In this document: positions 18,169-27,348 of the stretch, piece after piece
Position numbering within the stretch: position 1 is the stretch's first letter
How the letters are laid out: the number at the start of each line of letters is the position of its first letter
Assembly (NCBI GenBank): GCA_024228115.1
Contig: JAAETT010000153.1
Location: 1-39,482 of the forward strand
From: a bacterium
GTDB lineage: Bacteria > Myxococcota_A > UBA9160 > UBA6930
DNA length: 39,482 bases
Reading direction: 5' to 3'
Position numbers and translations under genes: made by a program
The notes under the pieces: model-generated
The model's database searches: none
What the model saw: only the letters and a program-made list of their open reading frames with translations
Told to the model about the DNA's origin: nothing

Positions 18169-18642
18169 TCAACCAGCGGGGACGACCTTTCCCAGACGGC
18201 CGGTGAACTGGTCTTCAGCCCAGCCAGTGAGGCGTTGGATCGCATCGAGAGCGTCTCCCTGGCCGGCCCAGTGGGAGCGGACGATGTCCGGGTGAACGTG
18301 GTTGACCAGCCGGGAGAGTGTCGCGGAAATCACGAGCACATCGTCGATGAGGCCAAACGGGCCGAACAGGAACTCTGGGATCAGGTCGACGGGTGACAGC
18401 ACGTAGCCGATCCCGAGCAGGGCGATGGCCTTGTCTCCGACCGCCACCCGCTCGTCGCGCAACAAGCGGAACATCAGCACGGTGAGATCCGGAAGCAGGA
18501 GCAGGATGTCCTTCAGCCCGGTCGACGCACCATGGACCGGTGCCTGCAGTTGTCCGCGAATGCGATCGTAGAAGCGTTGCTCCCGGCTCCCGAGTTCGAT
18601 CTCGACGGAGGGCGTGCGACCGTCGCCTTGACTAGCGCTCAT
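18169..18642 (-). CDS. DUF1232 (YkvA-type) membrane protein
   Basis: 157 residues. The central segment, about 70-105, carries the YkvA signature YVLSPVDLIPEF then GLIDDVLV, flanked by membrane-associated helices. The family's function is unknown. It is the last gene of a four-gene minus-strand operon and overlaps the stop of the preceding lipoprotein gene by eleven bases. Confidence 0.9.
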   Translation of the reverse strand: MSASQGDGRTPSVEIELGSREQRFYDRIRGQLQAPVHGASTGLKDILLLLPDLTVLMFRLLRDERVAVGDKAIALLGIGYVLSPVDLIPEFLFGPFGLIDDVLVISATLSRLVNHVHPDIVRSHWAGQGDALDAIQRLTGWAEDQFTGRLGKVVPAG

Positions 18643-20029
18643 CGGCGGCCTCCTCTTCGGGCGGCGCGGCCGCCACAGAGCCTGGGACCCGAAGCAAGCC
18701 GATCAAACCACGGCCTTCGGCATCCGGCAGGTCCGTCTCGAGCAGGTGCGCGAGAGTCGGCGCGACATCCAGCTGATGCAGGCTCGGTGCAACGATGCCA
18801 CCGCGAACGCCGCGCCCCCAGGCAACGAAGGCGGGCGAGTTCGTCGCCGGCGCGAAATAGCCGGCGGCAGCGCGTTGCGGCGAGGGAGCGACGAGGGGCC
18901 CGCGGGCGCCGTCCAGAAAGACGAAGCCAGGGCTTGCCTCGAGGCCGAACCAGGCCTCCGGGTCTGCGGCGTTCGCGATCATCTCTTCAGCCGAAACCAC
19001 CCGATAGGCCCCTGTCGCGTCGGCCTCCTCGGTGAGGACCTTCCGCGCCTGCAATGCAGACTCGGGGGTTTTCGCGTAGACGAAGGCCGACCCGCCGTTG
19101 GAACGCACCAACGCCTGCCAGGCATCCTCGCCGGAAAGGCCCGCATGGGCCAGCGCACGGTTCGGACGGACAGCCGTATGCACCGGTTGAAGGGCACGAT
19201 CGCCGACCACGATCACTGCCGATTCCGACAGCCCCGGGCCTGCGTCCAGGCAGCCGAGTAACCGGGTCAAGGCTTCGTCCACCTCGGTGAAGGCAGGATC
19301 CGCGGCATGAGGGCCCTGTTCGAGCAGCGGACGTTCGGGCCCGCGGAGCCGCACCAACAAGAGCCGAGGGCGCTCAGAGGATGCCAACGCGGTGCAGGCC
19401 GCCTCGACGAGGAAGCGATCCCGCTCCGGGCCAGCCTTGGCGACGGCTTCTGGGGCGGCTGTCGCGAGAGCCAGCAGCCAGGGCGTCGTCGAATCGGAAA
19501 TTGCAGAGAGCCAGGTCTCGTCGCGCCGGGTCGGCTGCACGTCGGGCAAGACAGCGGCCAGCGGCGCGCCCTGGGTCGAGGGCCAATCCAACGCCAGCAC
19601 CTTCCCATCGAGTGCATCCCACAACGTTCGGCTACGAGCGTGGCTGGCGTGCCAGGGCCGGCTGCGGCGCAACCCGCGCTCACCGATCAACCGGTCACCC
19701 AGAATTCCGTGGTCTCGGGGACGACGACCACTTACCCAGGTGGCATGCACCGGATAGACGCTCTCGGGCATCACGACTTCGACACGCTCGGCCGCCACGC
19801 CTGTTTCTGCCAGGGCTGCGAGCGTCGGCATCGGGCCGCCAACCCTGTGCAGTTCCGGAGTGAGGCCCGACACGCTCGCCAGCACCAACACGGAGGGGAT
19901 ACCGGCGGACGGAGCCTCCCAACCGGGCGCCGAAAAACGGGCCTGGATCTCCGGGCCCGACGTCTCCGCCATACATCCCACCCAGAACAACCCGAGGCTG
20001 AGCTGCGCCAACGGCCTCGCCCACTTCAT
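18632..20029 (-). CDS. Phosphodiesterase-fold lipoprotein lacking the active site
   Basis: 465 residues with a lipoprotein signal (LFWVGC, Cys19). The overall layout follows type I phosphodiesterases of the alkaline phosphatase superfamily: an opening VLVLASVSGL, PTLAALAETG, YPVHATWVSGRRPRDHGI, a late VIVVGDRA, then SLHQLDVAPTLAHLL. But the catalytic positions are changed: Ser for the metal Asp in the SxDGL motif, Val-Tyr in place of the nucleophile Thr, and DRA in place of DHG. I therefore expect no hydrolase activity; it may bind ligand or act structurally. ATGA overlap (4 bases) with the acyltransferase gene upstream. The end overlaps DUF1232. Confidence 0.8.
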   Translation of the reverse strand: MKWARPLAQLSLGLFWVGCMAETSGPEIQARFSAPGWEAPSAGIPSVLVLASVSGLTPELHRVGGPMPTLAALAETGVAAERVEVVMPESVYPVHATWVSGRRPRDHGILGDRLIGERGLRRSRPWHASHARSRTLWDALDGKVLALDWPSTQGAPLAAVLPDVQPTRRDETWLSAISDSTTPWLLALATAAPEAVAKAGPERDRFLVEAACTALASSERPRLLLVRLRGPERPLLEQGPHAADPAFTEVDEALTRLLGCLDAGPGLSESAVIVVGDRALQPVHTAVRPNRALAHAGLSGEDAWQALVRSNGGSAFVYAKTPESALQARKVLTEEADATGAYRVVSAEEMIANAADPEAWFGLEASPGFVFLDGARGPLVAPSPQRAAAGYFAPATNSPAFVAWGRGVRGGIVAPSLHQLDVAPTLAHLLETDLPDAEGRGLIGLLRVPGSVAAAPPEEEAADER

Positions 20030-20916
20030 CGGAACACCCCTTCTCGCTGCTCACGGCCATCCGCGAGCAGCTCGTCGATCGCGGCACGCACCCGATCCAC
20101 CTTTCGCTGGATGACCTCGTCCTCATCCGTGCTCTTGCCGTCGAAATGAAGCGGCTCCCCGAAATGGATGCGGTACTTTACGGGCAGCGGCAGCATCCCA
20201 AGGGGCCCGAGGAGTGGAAAGGTCGCCGTGATCGGAAAGGCGGGCAGGCCGAGGTACTTGCCCAGGGATTCGAGGTTCGCGAGCCCCGGGTTCTGCTCCT
20301 CCGAACCTACGATCCCGACCGGAACGATCGGCGTACCGGCCTCGAGCGCGAGGCGCAGGAAGCCCTGGCCGAAGCGCTGCAGTTGGTAGCGTCGGTCGAA
20401 GGTCTTGTTCATCCCGCGAGCACCTTCCGGGAACACCATCACGCACTCCCCCGCTTCGAGGAGCGCAGTGCAGTTCTCCGGCGTTCCGACGAGGTTGCCA
20501 CCGCGCTCGGCCGCCCAGCTCATGAAGGGCAGTTGGGGAATGAAATACTCGCCCATGCCCCGGACCAGCCGCGGAGGTTCAGCCTCGAGCAACATGGAGA
20601 TGACCAGCATCATGCCGTCGAACGGAAGCTGGCCTGCATGATTGGCGATCAGCAAGACGCCACCCGTCGGGATCTTCTCGATGCCGTACGTCTCCACGCG
20701 GAAGTAGTACTGATAGGCCAGCGCAGACGTGAGCATCTGCTTGCTGGCGGTCTCCGGGTGCAACCCGAAAGCGTCGTAGCCGAACTCGTTCAAGGTGGTG
20801 GGGATCTTCTGGATCCTGTCGGCGATCTCTGTCTGGAGATCACGCACCGCCGACGGCATCGCCGCACCGACCACATCGCCGATCGAATCGAGCCAACCGT
20901 TTCGCTCCGCCATCAC
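20026..20916 (-). CDS. Lysophospholipid acyltransferase (LPLAT/PlsC-like)
   Basis: About 296 residues. Motif I is NHAGQLPFD (His93 to Asp100, spacing H-x6-D rather than the usual H-x4-D), motif III VFPEGARG, and a later PIVPVGIVGSEEQ. These enzymes transfer acyl groups to lysophosphatidate or related acceptors at the inner membrane face. A close relative with the same spacing is at 29780-30691, and both share a TFPLxGPLGxLPLPV stretch near 240-255. GTG 20916 or ATG 20913 could start it; either overlaps the SDR stop. Position in the envelope operon suggests glycerolipid work. Confidence 0.9.
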   Translation of the reverse strand: MMAERNGWLDSIGDVVGAAMPSAVRDLQTEIADRIQKIPTTLNEFGYDAFGLHPETASKQMLTSALAYQYYFRVETYGIEKIPTGGVLLIANHAGQLPFDGMMLVISMLLEAEPPRLVRGMGEYFIPQLPFMSWAAERGGNLVGTPENCTALLEAGECVMVFPEGARGMNKTFDRRYQLQRFGQGFLRLALEAGTPIVPVGIVGSEEQNPGLANLESLGKYLGLPAFPITATFPLLGPLGMLPLPVKYRIHFGEPLHFDGKSTDEDEVIQRKVDRVRAAIDELLADGREQREGVFR

Positions 20917-21839
20917 GAACGCCCCTCTCGCAGGCTGGCGAACGTCTCGGCCAACCCGAAGAGAGGTTGGAAGCCCGTTGCCTCGGCAAACCGCTCGCCA
21001 GAAAGCGTCACCGGGAACTTCAAATAATCCAGGGCACCGGGCGGCCAGGGCACGACACCCGCGCCGAAGAGCATCCGGATCGCCGGACGGAAGAGCGGCT
21101 CCAGGATCGGGGTCGCTCGGCCCCCGGTCTCACGAATCGCCGTGTGAAGCGGCACCTGCCCCGGCCCCACGACATTGAAGACGCCCTGCAGGCCCTGCTC
21201 GAGGGCCTGGGCGATCGCTTCGGTCATGTCGGCCTCATGCATGAACTGCATCATGGGATCGAAACCGAGAACGGTCGGCACGCGCTCACGTCGCAGGAAG
21301 TTGGCGATCGTCGCGCTCACATTCGCACCGAGCACGTTGACCGGCCGCAACACCGCGGTGCGAATATGCGGGTACTTCCACAAGAAAGCGCTGGCGAGGC
21401 TATCGACCTCTACCAGGTCGCGAATTTCGGGATAGCTGCGGCTGGCGGAGAGCGGTTGCTCCTCATCCAGGTAGAAGGGATTTTCCGGAAAGGCGCCGTA
21501 GACGTAGCCGCTCGAGACGACCACGACCTTCTGAACCCCGTATTCGATGCTGTGATCGAGCAGCTGCTTCGTGCCACGGACGTTCACATCATGGCGGCGT
21601 TTCGGGTCCCCCTTGAAGTGGCGGATCATGCCCAGATGGACGATTGCATCCGGGCGCTCGGTCCGAATCACGTCCTCGAATTTGCGTTTGCGCAGATCGA
21701 GGCTGTAGACCGAGACTTCGTCAGGAGCTCCCCGCCAGGGAGCCCAATCCACGCCGCAGACCTTGAAGTTGGCCATCAAACGACTGGCCAACAGCCGTCC
21801 CTGGCCACCGGCGATGCCGGTGATGAGGACTTTTTCCAT
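20913..21839 (-). CDS. NAD-dependent epimerase/dehydratase-like SDR
   Basis: 308 residues. An extended SDR with GxxGxxG near 8-14 (GIAGGQG), VVVSSGYVYG near 113-122 and LRPVNVLG near 170. The catalytic Tyr of YxxxK is in SYPEIR, with Arg where Lys is usual, so catalysis may be changed. ATG 21839 is chosen; the longer frame to 22043 crosses the divergent promoter region. First gene of the overlapping operon 21839-18169. Substrate unknown; nucleotide-sugar or sterol-type reactions are possibilities. Confidence 0.87.
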   Translation of the reverse strand: MEKVLITGIAGGQGRLLASRLMANFKVCGVDWAPWRGAPDEVSVYSLDLRKRKFEDVIRTERPDAIVHLGMIRHFKGDPKRRHDVNVRGTKQLLDHSIEYGVQKVVVVSSGYVYGAFPENPFYLDEEQPLSASRSYPEIRDLVEVDSLASAFLWKYPHIRTAVLRPVNVLGANVSATIANFLRRERVPTVLGFDPMMQFMHEADMTEAIAQALEQGLQGVFNVVGPGQVPLHTAIRETGGRATPILEPLFRPAIRMLFGAGVVPWPPGALDYLKFPVTLSGERFAEATGFQPLFGLAETFASLREGRS

Positions 21840-22016
21840 AGGGGTCCCGAGGGGTTGCGGCCACGAGGGTATCGAGATGATGAGGGCCCCACTACCCCTG
21901 CCGCTTCGAACCGGTATCCTGCGCGGCGGCAAAACTCCGGGGCGCGGGGCCCCAGATTGCCTCCCCCGCGCAGCGCACGCCTGCAAGCAGCACCCCGGGG
22001 GACAGGAGGGCACCGA

Positions 22017-22733
22017 TTGGCCCTGGCCGAAGCGCAATATCAAGACATCGAGATTCCGCTTTCAGAACCGGTCCACGGTCTGGAATCGGTGAAGGGTGTG
22101 CTCGGCGTTCCCGAGTGGTGGCCTACGGGCTCGCGAATCAGTGTCGTCCTCGCCCAGGGCCAGGCCGGGGATGACCCGTTGATCGAGGGCCTCCAGCGCT
22201 CCCTGACCGAGCGAAAATATCTGACCCTGCGCTTCTGTTTCCCGTACCAGCAGGCCGGCAAGAAGAAGCCCGATGATCCGCGCATCCTGCAGCGCACCTT
22301 TCATTCAGCCGTGAACCTGCTCGGCCGGGATCCGACCGCGGCTCCGGCGCATGTCTTCATCGGCGGCAAGAACGTCGGCGCCATGGCCGCAGCCCACGCG
22401 GCGACCGCCCGGTTGCGAATCGAAGGCATCTTCTTCCTGGGCTTCCCCCTCCACAAGCAGGACAAACCGCAAGACCTCCAGGCCGACCGTCTATGGCGGG
22501 TGATCAACCCGATGCTCTTCCTGCAGGGCAACAAGGACCGCCACTGCGACCTTCCGTCGCTGCGAACCACACTCGGACGGGTCGGCGCGCCGGTGCAACT
22601 GCATGTGATCGACGAAGCCGACCACGCGCTCAAGGTCGCGAAGAAATCCGGCCGCACGGCGGAAGAAGTGGAGGCCGAGGTCTTCGCAACGCTGGAAGCC
22701 TGGCTCCTCAAGACGCTCGGCGACGCCGCGTAG
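22017..22733 (+). CDS. TEX30/KANL3-type alpha/beta-hydrolase-fold protein, nucleophile Ser replaced by Asn
   Basis: 238 residues. It follows the COG3571-like alpha/beta hydrolase pattern: ISVVLAQGQAGDD near 41-53, GFPLHKQDKP near 142-151, MLFLQGNKDRH (Asp174) and EADHALKV (His203). The nucleophile elbow, usually GGxSMG, reads GGKNVG with Asn119 in place of Ser. Without Ser, hydrolase activity is doubtful. TTG 22017 has AGGAGG seven bases upstream, a strong ribosome-binding site. The Rieske gene starts five bases after its stop. Divergent from the SDR operon across 177 bases. Confidence 0.85.
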   Translation: MALAEAQYQDIEIPLSEPVHGLESVKGVLGVPEWWPTGSRISVVLAQGQAGDDPLIEGLQRSLTERKYLTLRFCFPYQQAGKKKPDDPRILQRTFHSAVNLLGRDPTAAPAHVFIGGKNVGAMAAAHAATARLRIEGIFFLGFPLHKQDKPQDLQADRLWRVINPMLFLQGNKDRHCDLPSLRTTLGRVGAPVQLHVIDEADHALKVAKKSGRTAEEVEAEVFATLEAWLLKTLGDAA

Positions 22734-22738
22734 CCAAC

Positions 22739-23050
22739 GTGGGCTGGCATAGCCTCGAACCGGCGTCCAAGCTTCGAGAAGGCGAGATCAAGACCTTTCG
22801 GATGGGTGGGCGCTACCTGGCCATCGGACGCACCGCCGATGGCTACTTCGCAATGGACGATCTCTGCCCCCATGCGGGCGGCAGCCTGGGTGAAGGCATG
22901 CTCGATGACGAATGCGTGCTCTGCCCCATCCACGGTTACGCCTATCATGTGCGCACGGGCGAGGGCTTCGACGATGGCAACGAGGTCCAGGTCTATCAGG
23001 TCGAGCTCCAGGGCGAACTGCTGCGGGTGAATCTTCACGACGAGGAGTGA
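22739..23050 (+). CDS. Rieske [2Fe-2S] ferredoxin
   Basis: 103 residues, the size of stand-alone Rieske ferredoxins of aromatic oxygenase or nitrite reductase small-subunit type. Cluster ligands Cys43/His45 (LCPHAGGSL) and Cys62/His65 (LCPIHGY) are intact. No signal peptide, so cytoplasmic. Start GTG 22739. It lies five bases from the alpha/beta-hydrolase-fold gene and seven from the heme monooxygenase gene, and may pass electrons to the latter; that link is inference. Confidence 0.94.
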   Translation: MGWHSLEPASKLREGEIKTFRMGGRYLAIGRTADGYFAMDDLCPHAGGSLGEGMLDDECVLCPIHGYAYHVRTGEGFDDGNEVQVYQVELQGELLRVNLHDEE

Positions 23051-23057
23051 GAAGACA

Positions 23058-23360
23058 ATGTTCATCGCGATGAATCGGTTTCGCATCGCTCTCGGGAGCG
23101 AGGAAGTCTTCGAGGAGCTGTGGCGCAGTCGGGATTCGTACCTGGAAGAGGTGCCGGGCTTTCGCACCTTCCAGCTGCTGAAGGGGCCGGCGGACGACGA
23201 GGCCGTCCTCTACGCCTCCCACACCGTCTGGGAGAGCCAGGAGGCCTTTTCGGCCTGGACCGAATCCGAGCATTTCCGGAAGGCCCACGCCCGGGGCCGG
23301 GCGCCCCAGGGCACCTACCTCGGCCCTCCCCAGTTCGAGGGCTTCGAGGTCGTGCTCTAG
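23058..23360 (+). CDS. IsdG-family heme-degrading monooxygenase
   Basis: 100 residues with a ferredoxin-like antibiotic-biosynthesis-monooxygenase fold. The IsdG/IsdI/MhuD catalytic triad is matched: Asn6 (AMNRFRI), Trp67 (SAWTES) and His77 (FRKAHA), with the TVW and QEAF neighbours also as in staphylococcal IsdG. Such enzymes open the heme ring to release iron using an external electron donor. ATG 23058 comes seven bases after the Rieske stop, with GAG/AGAAGA upstream. No heme transporter is nearby. A general ABM-domain monooxygenase is the alternative. Confidence 0.87.
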   Translation: MFIAMNRFRIALGSEEVFEELWRSRDSYLEEVPGFRTFQLLKGPADDEAVLYASHTVWESQEAFSAWTESEHFRKAHARGRAPQGTYLGPPQFEGFEVVL

Positions 23361-23419
23361 CAGGTTGCGGAAGAACCCCTCCCGTCGCCTGCTTGGCCTT
23401 CGTGGGCGATGATCCCTGG

Positions 23420-24691
23420 GTGGATGCTCGCTGCCTGGTTCACCCGCTCCTGCTGCTCGCTCTGATGCTGACGCCCGCCGCCGGCCCCTCTCCCGTGCGG
23501 GCCGCCGGCCCGCCGATCGCGAAGGCCCCGCACCCTTTCCTGGAGATCGATGCGCCGGCCCTCGCCGAGGACACGACCGACGATCCGCTCTTCGAGGTGC
23601 GAGGCCATGGCGGCAGCCGGCGCGGCGATGGCCACGACGTCGTCATCGCCCTCGACGTTTCTGAGAGCACCTTGCTCGATTCCGGCCTCGAGCTCGACGG
23701 CGACGGCCCCTCGGGCAGGACGGACCCCGCACTCATCGAGTGGCTCATCGAGCAGACAGGCGAAACGCCGCTCGTGCAGCGATTGCGCGACGAGCAGGAT
23801 TTCGAGGACACGGTCCTCGCCGCCGAACTCGAGGCAGCCCGTGCGCTGGCTTCCCGTCTCGATCCGGCGCGCTTCCGCGTCGGCGTCGTCACCTTCGCCG
23901 AAGAGGCCCGGGTGGTCGCACCGCTCGGCGCCACACGCAATGAGTTGGCCCGCGCCTTGACCGACGTTCCCCGCGATCTGTTCTGGGAATCCGCGGGCAC
24001 GAACTATCAGGCCGCCGTCGAGAAGGCCCACGACCTCCTGCGCCCTCCTCTGGGCCTTCCGGACGATCGACTGCGTTCGATCGTGTTCCTGTCGGACGGC
24101 GCACCGACGCGCCCTCTGCTCGGAAATCGAGCCGAGCGCTACGCCCTTGAAGCGGCCGTGGCAGCCGGCCGAGATGAGATCCGCCTGTTCGCATTCGCAA
24201 TCGGCCCCGAGGCCGAGAGTGGCCTGGAGGTGCTCGCCCGCATGACCGGGTGGACGTCTGGCCGGCTCGAGACCGTCACCCGCCCGGGGCTCATCGTGAA
24301 CCGCCTGCGCCAGCTCGACCTCGTGGGCCTCGCGCACCTGGAGGTCGTCAACGTGACGACCGGTGAAGCGGCCCGGGCCTTGCGCGTGTTTCCCGACGGC
24401 AGCTTCGATGCCTTCGTCGAGCTGAAACCAGGCACGAACGAGCTGCGCTTCCTGGCCCGGGACCGGGACGACGAGGAGCATGAGATCGTGCGCCGCGTGG
24501 AGTATCGACCCGGCGCGACGCCTTCGGAAACGCCACCGGCCGTGGCGAGCGGCCCGCCCGGCGCCGAGGCCACGAACCTCGAGAAGCTGCGGACTCGAAC
24601 CGCAGAGATCGAGGCGCTCGCGGAGATGGAGGCTCGCCGCCAACACGCGAAGGAGCTCCAGATTCGTGCGGAAGAGCGATCGCAACGCTGA
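23420..24691 (+). CDS. Exported VWA-domain protein
   Basis: 423 residues: a signal peptide (Leu-rich helix at 7-20 then an Ala-rich cleavage region), a von Willebrand factor A domain (about 70-285) and a charged C-terminal coiled coil (about 385-423). The MIDAS is complete: DVSES (79-83), GTNY and LSDGAPT. Metal-dependent ligand or protein binding is expected in the periplasm or outside. GTG 23420 is my choice; earlier in-frame starts would put acidic residues before the signal. Its TGA overlaps an ATG of the next frame (TGATG). Confidence 0.82.
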   Translation: MDARCLVHPLLLLALMLTPAAGPSPVRAAGPPIAKAPHPFLEIDAPALAEDTTDDPLFEVRGHGGSRRGDGHDVVIALDVSESTLLDSGLELDGDGPSGRTDPALIEWLIEQTGETPLVQRLRDEQDFEDTVLAAELEAARALASRLDPARFRVGVVTFAEEARVVAPLGATRNELARALTDVPRDLFWESAGTNYQAAVEKAHDLLRPPLGLPDDRLRSIVFLSDGAPTRPLLGNRAERYALEAAVAAGRDEIRLFAFAIGPEAESGLEVLARMTGWTSGRLETVTRPGLIVNRLRQLDLVGLAHLEVVNVTTGEAARALRVFPDGSFDAFVELKPGTNELRFLARDRDDEEHEIVRRVEYRPGATPSETPPAVASGPPGAEATNLEKLRTRTAEIEALAEMEARRQHAKELQIRAEERSQR

Positions 24692-24720
24692 TGGTGCACC
24701 CTCATCGACCAGGAGACAGC

Positions 24721-25422
24721 GTGAGCCCTTCAAGCGACCTCTACTTTCATCAGATGCCCGCCGGCGAGATGGCCAACCTGGTCTACCTGGTGGGGAGCCG
24801 TGAGACCCGGGAGTGTCTCCTCGTCGATCCCGCCTGGAATGTCGGCGGACTCCTCGACCAGGCGGCGGCCGACGACATGAACGTGGTTGGCGCACTCGTG
24901 ACGCACTACCACCAGGATCACGTCGGCGGTTCCATCTTCGGTATGGAGATCGAGGGGCTCGCGGAGCTGATGGCGCGCCAGCCGGTGCCGGTGCACGTCA
25001 ACAAGCAGGAAGCCGACGGGTTGCGGCAGGTGACCGGCATCTCAGAGAACGACATCGTGCGCCATGAGGGCGGCGATACGATCGAGCTCGGCTCGATGAC
25101 CATCCGCCTCTTGCACACTCCCGGCCATACACCCGGCTCGCAGTGTTTCCTGGTCGAACCCGCGGATGGACCCGGCAGCCTGGTGTCTGGCGACACCCTC
25201 TTCCTTGGCAGCTGTGGCCGCGTCGATCTGCCGGGAGGCGACCCGACAGCGCTGTATGACAGCCTTCACAACCAGCTGGGCAAGCTGCCGGACGAGACGC
25301 TTCTCTACCCGGGCCACCTCTATTCCACCGAGCCGTCCTCCACGATGGCCGAGCAGAAACGCACGAATCCCTACCTGCGTGTGACGCGGCTCGAGGACTT
25401 TCTCGGTTTCATGGGTCACTAG
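24721..25422 (+). CDS. MBL-fold metallohydrolase (glyoxalase II/persulfide dioxygenase-like)
   Basis: 233 residues. The metal motif is THYHQDHVGG (His62, His64, Asp66, His67), with later HTPGHTPGSQCFL, SGDTLFLGSCGRVDLPGGD and LLYPGHLYS. The GRxDLPGGD type of third motif is common in persulfide dioxygenase and glyoxalase II-like proteins. GTG 24721 has AGGAGA about five bases upstream; ATG 24691, coupled to the VWA stop, is the alternative. Substrate not determined. Confidence 0.92.
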   Translation: MSPSSDLYFHQMPAGEMANLVYLVGSRETRECLLVDPAWNVGGLLDQAAADDMNVVGALVTHYHQDHVGGSIFGMEIEGLAELMARQPVPVHVNKQEADGLRQVTGISENDIVRHEGGDTIELGSMTIRLLHTPGHTPGSQCFLVEPADGPGSLVSGDTLFLGSCGRVDLPGGDPTALYDSLHNQLGKLPDETLLYPGHLYSTEPSSTMAEQKRTNPYLRVTRLEDFLGFMGH

Positions 25423-25479
25423 TCTTCGTCTCGCGGCTGTAAGCCCTCGGATCTGGGGCACTTTCCCCCGCCGCGGTTG

Positions 25480-25508
25480 TTGAAAAGCGCCCCCCACTCC
25501 GTTACCGT
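25480..25508 (+). promoter_or_regulatory. Putative sigma-70-type promoter of etfBA
   Basis: TTGAAA (25480-25485), a 17-base spacer and TACCGT (25503-25508), 84 bases before the etfB start. Good -35 and spacing, weaker -10. It is the best promoter match I found in the window. Confidence 0.42.
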
Positions 25509-25591
25509 CCGCCCTCGCTCGAAGCCCCCTCCCCCGTTGGGACCGGAGCGCCTCGGGCCCCCTTTGACCGTAACCCGGAGGCTGTGTCCCC

Positions 25592-26374
25592 ATGAAGATC
25601 CTGGTCTGCCTGAAGCAGGTGCCGCACCAGGATGCCCGTCTCGATATCGATGGCGCGGGCACCTGGATCAAAGAAGATGGCATCAAGTTCGAGATCAACA
25701 GCTACGACACGTTCGCCCTCGAGGAAGCGCTGCGCATCAAGGATGCAGGCGAAGCCGAGGTGGTGGTGGTGTCGATCGGTCCCGATCGTGTGACCCAGGC
25801 CCTGCGCACGGCGCTCGGCATGGGCGCCGACCGCGCCGTCCACGTGAAGGACGCGGAGATCGACGGTTCCGATGCCCTTGGTATTGCCAAGGTGCTGGCC
25901 GCCGTGGCCAAGGAAGAGAGCCCGGATCTCGTCCTGATGGGCCTGATGTCCGACGACGGCAACGCGTCGGCTGTGCCGCCGATGCTCGCCGAGCTGATGG
26001 GCGTACCGAGCGCCACCGCCGTCATGAAGGCCGAGCCCGAGGGTGACGGCTACCGCTGCGAGCGTGAGCTCGAGGGCGGCGCCCTCGAGGTGGTTGACCT
26101 CGCCAAGCCCTGCTTGATCGCGGTGCAGTCTGGCCTGAACCAGGTCCGCTACGCCTCACTCAAGGGCATCATGGCCGCGAAGAAGAAGCCCCTGGATACG
26201 AAGGGCGCGGGCGATCTCGGCCTTTCGGGCACCGTGGGTGCAGCTGGCGCCAAGGCGCAGATCGAGAAGATCTACGCACCGGTGCGCGGCGAAGGCGCAG
26301 AGATCATCGAAGGCTCGACCGACGAGGTGGTGACCCAGCTCGTTGGCAAGATCAAGGAGCTGGGCCTCCTCTAA
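25592..26374 (+). CDS. etfB: Electron transfer flavoprotein beta subunit
   Basis: 260 residues, full length. KILVCLKQVP at the start, the NSYDTFALEEALRIKD segment, LMGLMSDDGNASAVPPMLAELM, and the AKPCLIAVQSGLNQVRYASLKGIM recognition-loop region fit EtfB. With EtfA it carries electrons from acyl-CoA dehydrogenases and similar flavoenzymes to the quinone pool through ETF-QO. Start ATG 25592. etfA follows 26 bases later with AAGGAGAAC before its ATG. No acyl-CoA dehydrogenase gene is adjacent. Confidence 0.97.
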   Translation: MKILVCLKQVPHQDARLDIDGAGTWIKEDGIKFEINSYDTFALEEALRIKDAGEAEVVVVSIGPDRVTQALRTALGMGADRAVHVKDAEIDGSDALGIAKVLAAVAKEESPDLVLMGLMSDDGNASAVPPMLAELMGVPSATAVMKAEPEGDGYRCERELEGGALEVVDLAKPCLIAVQSGLNQVRYASLKGIMAAKKKPLDTKGAGDLGLSGTVGAAGAKAQIEKIYAPVRGEGAEIIEGSTDEVVTQLVGKIKELGLL

Positions 26375-26400
26375 GGGGAGCCTGCACAAGGAGAACACCG

Positions 26401-27348
26401 ATGGGCAACATCCTCATCGTCACGGAAATCAAGGACGGCGTGATCCGCGAAGCCAGCTACGAGCTGGCCGCCTTCGCCCAGAAGCTCGGCGGCGACGTCA
26501 AGAGCCTGGTCATTGGCAGTGGCATCGCCGGCGAGGCCGAGAGCTTCGCCAAGAAGGGCGGCGGCACGGTCTATGTGGCCGACGACGCCTCGCTCGCCAA
26601 CTACAACGTCGAGGGCTACGCCGCAGCCATTCGCGCCGCGGTCGATGCCTCGGGTGCCGATGTGGTGCTCATCTCCAACACACCGAGTGGTTGGGATGTG
26701 GCTCCGCGCATCGCCGCGGGCCTGGACATCGCATTCGTCTCGGATGTCTTCGATTTCCAGGACGGCGCCTACATTCGCCGCGTCTTCAACGGCAAACTCG
26801 ATGCCCGGATCGCCGTGCCTGGAGACAAGGCCGTCGTGACGATCCAGCCGGGCGCCTTGCCGGCCTTCGAAGGTTCCAGCGACGGTGGAACCGAGAGCCT
26901 CTCGGTCGACACCTCCGGTGCGCGTTCGAAGTTCGTCGAAACCAAGGTCGCCGCATCCAAGGGCGTCGATCTTTCGGCAGCCGAGGTCATCATCTCGGGT
27001 GGCCGCGGCGTGGGAGATCCGGAGAAGTTCAAGGAGGTCATCCAGCCCCTGGCCGACGTTCTGGGCGGCGCCATGGGCGCCTCGCGCCCGGTGGTCGATG
27101 CCGGCTGGCTGCCCCACGAGTACCAGGTCGGCTCGTCAGGTCAGGTCGTGACGCCGAAGCTCTACGTCGCCGCCGGCATCTCCGGTGCCATCCAGCACCT
27201 GGTCGGCATGAAGGGCTCCAACTTCATCATCGCCATCAACAAGGACGCCGACGCGCCGATCTTCGAGGTCGCCCAGATCGGCGTCGTCGCCGATCTCTTC
27301 GACGTCATCCCCGCCCTGACGGCCGCCCTCCAGGAGGCCAAGGGCTAG
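26401..27348 (+). CDS. etfA: Electron transfer flavoprotein alpha subunit
   Basis: 315 residues. The C-terminal FAD domain is intact: [12 protein letters not shown] near 199-210, [19 protein letters not shown], then [15 protein letters not shown] and [13 protein letters not shown], all EtfA signatures. The N-terminal domain pairs with EtfB. AAGGAG lies eight bases before ATG 26401. Transcription runs into the long palindrome at 27361-27459, twelve bases after the stop. Confidence 0.97.

Follow-up and report, generated by a model that had tools for sequence, protein, structure and literature searches.

A 39,482-nt stretch of a Myxococcota genome, referred to below as the window, carries the gene for a Rieske ferredoxin directly upstream of a gene for a 100-residue protein. 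The initial annotation read the 100-residue protein as an IsdG-type heme monooxygenase and the ferredoxin as its dedicated electron donor, in what would be a new arrangement. Does this adjacency reflect a donor-enzyme pair? For most bacterial heme oxygenases the electron donor is not known (PMC6018153). If true, a lineage-specific pairing would open a direct way to the proteins that supply these enzymes with electrons; judged by the literature found, in which no Rieske donor of a heme oxygenase is described, it would also be the first case of a Rieske protein serving an IsdG-family enzyme as donor.

The Rieske ferredoxin and the 100-residue protein

The genes of the region are listed in Table 1. 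Five bases separate the end of the hydrolase gene from the Rieske start, and seven bases the Rieske stop from the HmuQ start; the Rieske and HmuQ genes are probably co-transcribed. Relative to the nearest congener, dN/dS was about 0.015/0.317 for the Rieske gene and 0.026/0.216 for the HmuQ (ABM) gene, indicating purifying selection on both.

Table 1. Genes of the window region around the Rieske and HmuQ genes
Product	Position	Strand	Evidence and remarks
NAD-dependent epimerase/dehydratase	20913..21845	-	Pfam PF01370, E = 1.4e-23; synteny; divergent, upstream in conserved block
Alpha/beta-hydrolase-fold protein	22020..22733	+	Abhydrolase_11 (PF20408), Pfam E = 8.9e-31; TTG start; Ser nucleophile replaced (GGKNVG)
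Rieske [2Fe-2S] ferredoxin, 103 aa	22739..23050	+	Pfam PF00355, E = 2.5e-14; CxH/CxxH ligands; GTG start, TGA stop
HmuQ-type (IsdG-family) heme oxygenase, predicted, 100 aa	23058..23360	+	NCBIfam NF053649; N6/W67/H77; AF2 fold; ATG start, TAG stop
von Willebrand A (VWA) domain protein	23387..24691	+	Pfam VWA_2, E = 1.2e-11; start codon not fixed
Metallo-beta-lactamase-fold (MBL) hydrolase	24691..25422	+	Pfam PF00753, E = 1.6e-20; synteny; conserved-block member
EtfB-like electron transfer flavoprotein subunit	25592..26374	+	Sequence reading; synteny, 70-97% identity
EtfA-like electron transfer flavoprotein subunit	26401..27348	+	Sequence reading; synteny, 63-95% identity

The presence of a full Rieske ferredoxin seven bases before the HmuQ gene was confirmed by the Pfam match, the coordinates and the four cluster ligands (C43-x-H45 and C62-x2-H65) of this single-domain protein. 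Its closest solved structure is CarAc (1vck, E = 5.9e-12), and it scores far under the AndAb, HcaC, NirD and MocE cut-offs.

The 100-residue protein is very probably a HmuQ-type heme oxygenase of a known family. It scored 148.4 bits with the NCBIfam HmuQ model (NF053649), above the cut-off of 130, and was matched more weakly by the IsdI and IsdG models (positions 1-80 of the IsdI model aligned to residues 1-81). The Pfam call is ABM ('antibiotic biosynthesis monooxygenase', E = 3e-18). Asn6, Trp67 and His77, likened to IsdG in the initial annotation, are present and were identical in 110/110 aligned sequences; the triad is therefore not a chance occurrence. An AlphaFold2 model (pLDDT 91.7) gave TM scores of 0.86 against IsdI (2zdp) and 0.85 against IsdG (8avh), with heme-bound structures among the matches; non-heme ABM enzymes reached only about 0.65-0.70. 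Among solved structures, the sequence search put Thermus TT1380 first (1iuj, E = 1.2e-18), with HmoB, IsdI, and MhuD next and IsdG also among the matches; the AlphaFold2 model matched 1iuj in fold as well. In five gammaproteobacterial loci, including that of Pseudohaliea (L010), the orthologue lies directly 3' of TonB receptor-HmuT-HmuU-HmuV-type genes (TonB receptor, substrate-binding protein, FecCD permease, and ATPase), and further loci have HmuQ orthologues near heme-uptake-type genes. Heme-specific models were run on the Pseudohaliea and Mesorhizobium (L073) loci only: the receptor and ATPase of the former passed, and the latter has a heme receptor above cut-off near HmuQ. The family model, the fold, the invariant triad, and the heme-uptake linkage in relatives make a HmuQ-type heme oxygenase the best reading, which upholds the IsdG-type assignment and narrows it to HmuQ.

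Distribution of the gene pair

The search for the Rieske-HmuQ pair covered 80 loci taken from GTDB genomes, the genomes of 60 relatives, and 90 genomes of the class. Some of the 110 HmuQ loci compared are duplicated between collections (L002 and L082, for example, are the same contig as that of congener G003), which leaves about 100 distinct loci. A Rieske profile was searched against all ORFs within 5 kb of HmuQ or within the shorter flank available; many loci have flanks below 5 kb, where a more distant Rieske gene would escape. Among the 110 loci, tblastn and the Rieske profile placed a Rieske gene next to HmuQ in the window genome and G003 only, and no second pair was found outside the genus in the three collections. 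Two further, distant Rieske hits, 3.1 kb downstream of HmuQ in L046 and 3.8 kb upstream on the other strand in L050, were judged coincidental.

HmuQ was detected in 47 of the 90 class genomes (E ≤ 1e-15) and a close Rieske match in 16, the two being adjacent in 2. Just those two genomes have both genes on the same contig; the ten others that carry both have them on different contigs. The co-occurrence is weakly positive, with HmuQ in 12/16 genomes with a close Rieske match and 35/74 without (Fisher p = 0.056, kinship ignored). Within the same family, the Rieske gene alone is present in four genomes and HmuQ alone in three; single gene absences may be gaps here, since the family genomes are drafts of 82-96% completeness. 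A Pfam tally of the direct neighbours of HmuQ contained no Rieske and no recurring redox partner among the 25 families listed, the most frequent of which is an ABC-transporter ATPase.

The pair is thus found in two species of one genus only and is not conserved in relatives, and the arrangement described at first as new is a genus-restricted adjacency. Gene adjacency in a single genome is no evidence for a donor-enzyme pair, and a tempting but weak claim is removed. HmuQ-type heme oxygenases themselves are widespread, occurring in Myxococcota, Pseudomonadota, Planctomycetota, Acidobacteriota, and others, often without adjoining heme-uptake genes. As a side observation, the HmuQ proteins of a Dehalococcoidia MAG (L043) and of a MAG labelled Klebsiella pneumoniae (L039) fall among gammaproteobacterial sequences in the tree, due either to mis-binned or mislabelled contigs or to transfer.

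The gene block around the Rieske gene

The Rieske gene has its conserved partner in the alpha/beta-hydrolase-fold gene upstream; both belong to a block that spans families. The order hydrolase-Rieske-MBL, without HmuQ there, was found in eleven genomes (G001, G002, G005, G008, G011, G012, G022, G034, G037, G038, and G058), and EtfBA follow beyond it in all except G001 and G037, whose available stretch ends. The whole or nearly whole arrangement, hydrolase-Rieske-MBL-EtfB-EtfA with a divergent epimerase-acyltransferase-phosphodiesterase set, is present in G005, G008, G011, G012, G022, G034, G038, and G058; the exceptions are G038, where the expected place holds neither epimerase nor acyltransferase, and G005, which gave no phosphodiesterase hit. 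In G001, G037, and G058 the contig or stretch is too short to show all of the block. The genera that share the block belong to the same and to other families. In the window, an order-wide block of this kind occupies positions 18632-27348: hydrolase-(Rieske)-MBL-EtfB-EtfA on one side and, in divergent orientation, the genes for phosphodiesterase, acyltransferase, and epimerase.

The slot between the hydrolase and MBL genes is variable. The MBL gene directly follows the Rieske gene in G001, and in G002 the Rieske-MBL gap is occupied by another protein, of about 217 residues. The Rieske gene is not universal in the block, since G010, G013, G015, and G020 keep the hydrolase and MBL genes with no Rieske gene between them. 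HmuQ and the VWA gene lie between Rieske and MBL in the window genome and G003 only, a placement confined to one sub-clade of the genus; the VWA gene is also present in G004 and was not detected in G001 or G002.

In congener G004 the VWA gene is kept and the Rieske and HmuQ genes are both gone. What remains of HmuQ is about 17 bases from its 3' end, in register, before the VWA gene (L183, 4675-4707), and the junction aligns gap-free with the end of the G003 HmuQ gene (common TCGAGGTCGTGC) and the sequence beyond. This remnant suggests that the ancestor of the window species, G003 and G004 probably had HmuQ and that G004 lost Rieske and HmuQ together, apparently by a single deletion.

Of 60 related genomes, 59 carry a homologue of the hydrolase-fold gene. 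Where GxSxG would form the nucleophile elbow, the window protein has GGKNVG, and in 30/30 aligned orthologues the serine site is Asn, Gly or Met-flanked Gly, never Ser. It appears to be a conserved predicted pseudo-hydrolase, often with a Rieske ferredoxin gene after it.

Electron supply and comparison with known systems

In the host genome, neither a heme-specific TonB receptor over cut-off nor an HO-1-type heme oxygenase was detected, and no heme-uptake genes lie near the window HmuQ. The best FecCD locus (L224, on C232 of the same genome) is a cluster of TonB receptor, substrate-binding protein, FecCD permease, and ATPase genes; it looks like a BtuB-BtuF-BtuC-like vitamin B12 uptake locus, though no protein in it passes a curated cut-off. 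Given the results for the oxygenase, the receptor and this B12-like locus, HmuQ may act on internal rather than imported heme. Elsewhere the genome encodes a BphA4-type ferredoxin-reductase C-terminal domain (C424:27148-27378), so that reduction of the Rieske protein is possible in principle.

We consider it probable that the gene of a HmuQ-type heme oxygenase ended up within an older block, that its adjacency to the Rieske gene is mainly historical, and that the electrons of the enzyme come from general reductases. The adjacency is taken as historical because the Rieske gene belongs to the older block and has the hydrolase-fold gene as its conserved neighbour. By analogy with its family, HmuQ would be a dimeric ferredoxin-like-fold enzyme that binds heme via His77, in a pocket that also contains Asn6 and Trp67, and uses O2 and electrons to open the heme ring. 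The HmuQ and VWA genes would have entered the block of hydrolase-fold protein, Rieske ferredoxin, MBL-fold protein, EtfB and EtfA in one sub-clade of this Myxococcota genus. Electrons would most likely be supplied by general cellular reductases, presumably as in orthologues without a Rieske neighbour, and the Rieske protein would probably serve the conserved block. The seven-base spacing, the probable co-transcription, and the weakly positive co-occurrence across genomes speak against a mainly historical adjacency, as does the loss of exactly these two genes in G004, which a functional unit would also fit; the heme source is also unclear, with no heme receptor over cut-off and a B12-like FecCD locus.

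It is unlikely that the Rieske protein is a dedicated donor, whose cluster would be reduced by an NAD(P)H-dependent ferredoxin reductase with its gene at another site and would pass the electrons on to HmuQ-bound heme. The close spacing and purifying selection on both genes, the joint loss in G004, the BphA4-type domain, and the scarcity of known donors are in its favour, but the pair was not found outside one genus, about 100 other loci have no Rieske neighbour, the Rieske gene stays beside the hydrolase gene where no HmuQ was found (G001, G002, G008, and G012), and the literature found holds no precedent. Across the order the Rieske gene recurs with the hydrolase gene and not with HmuQ, and the proposal of a dedicated donor is therefore not supported. 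A recruitment of the Rieske protein within the genus as a HmuQ-specific donor, with the G004 deletion as loss of the unit, is likewise improbable. We regard as very unlikely that the ABM-domain protein is a non-heme, cofactor-independent quinone or polyketide monooxygenase of the same superfamily. Pfam calls it ABM only and heme-uptake genes are missing nearby in the window genome, but it passes the HmuQ model, its heme-binding triad is invariant, its closest folds are IsdG/IsdI and not the SnoaB/ActVA-Orf6 types, and its orthologues are linked to heme uptake.

Among known systems, HmuQ of Bradyrhizobium japonicum (NF053649) is of the same family by model score and of the same length, with orthologues in heme-uptake clusters; the B. 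japonicum enzymes are described in a review (PMC6449446) that cites Puri and O'Brian (2006). In contrast, the window HmuQ, whose activity is a prediction, lies in a hydrolase-Rieske-ETF block without heme-uptake linkage. Staphylococcus aureus IsdG/IsdI share the fold (TM 0.85) and the Asn/Trp/His triad, but identity is 20-25% and the products may differ; IruO and NtrA, not a Rieske protein, are the presumed electron partners of the staphylococcal enzymes (PMC6018153). TT1380 of Thermus thermophilus (1iuj) is 42% identical over the full length, under an entry title that assigns no function. The window Rieske protein resembles the CarAc/BphF/AndAb-type ferredoxins in size, CxH/CxxH ligands and full-length match. 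Unlike in those types, its scanned neighbours include no dioxygenase genes, and its conserved neighbours are the hydrolase-fold protein, the MBL protein, and ETF.
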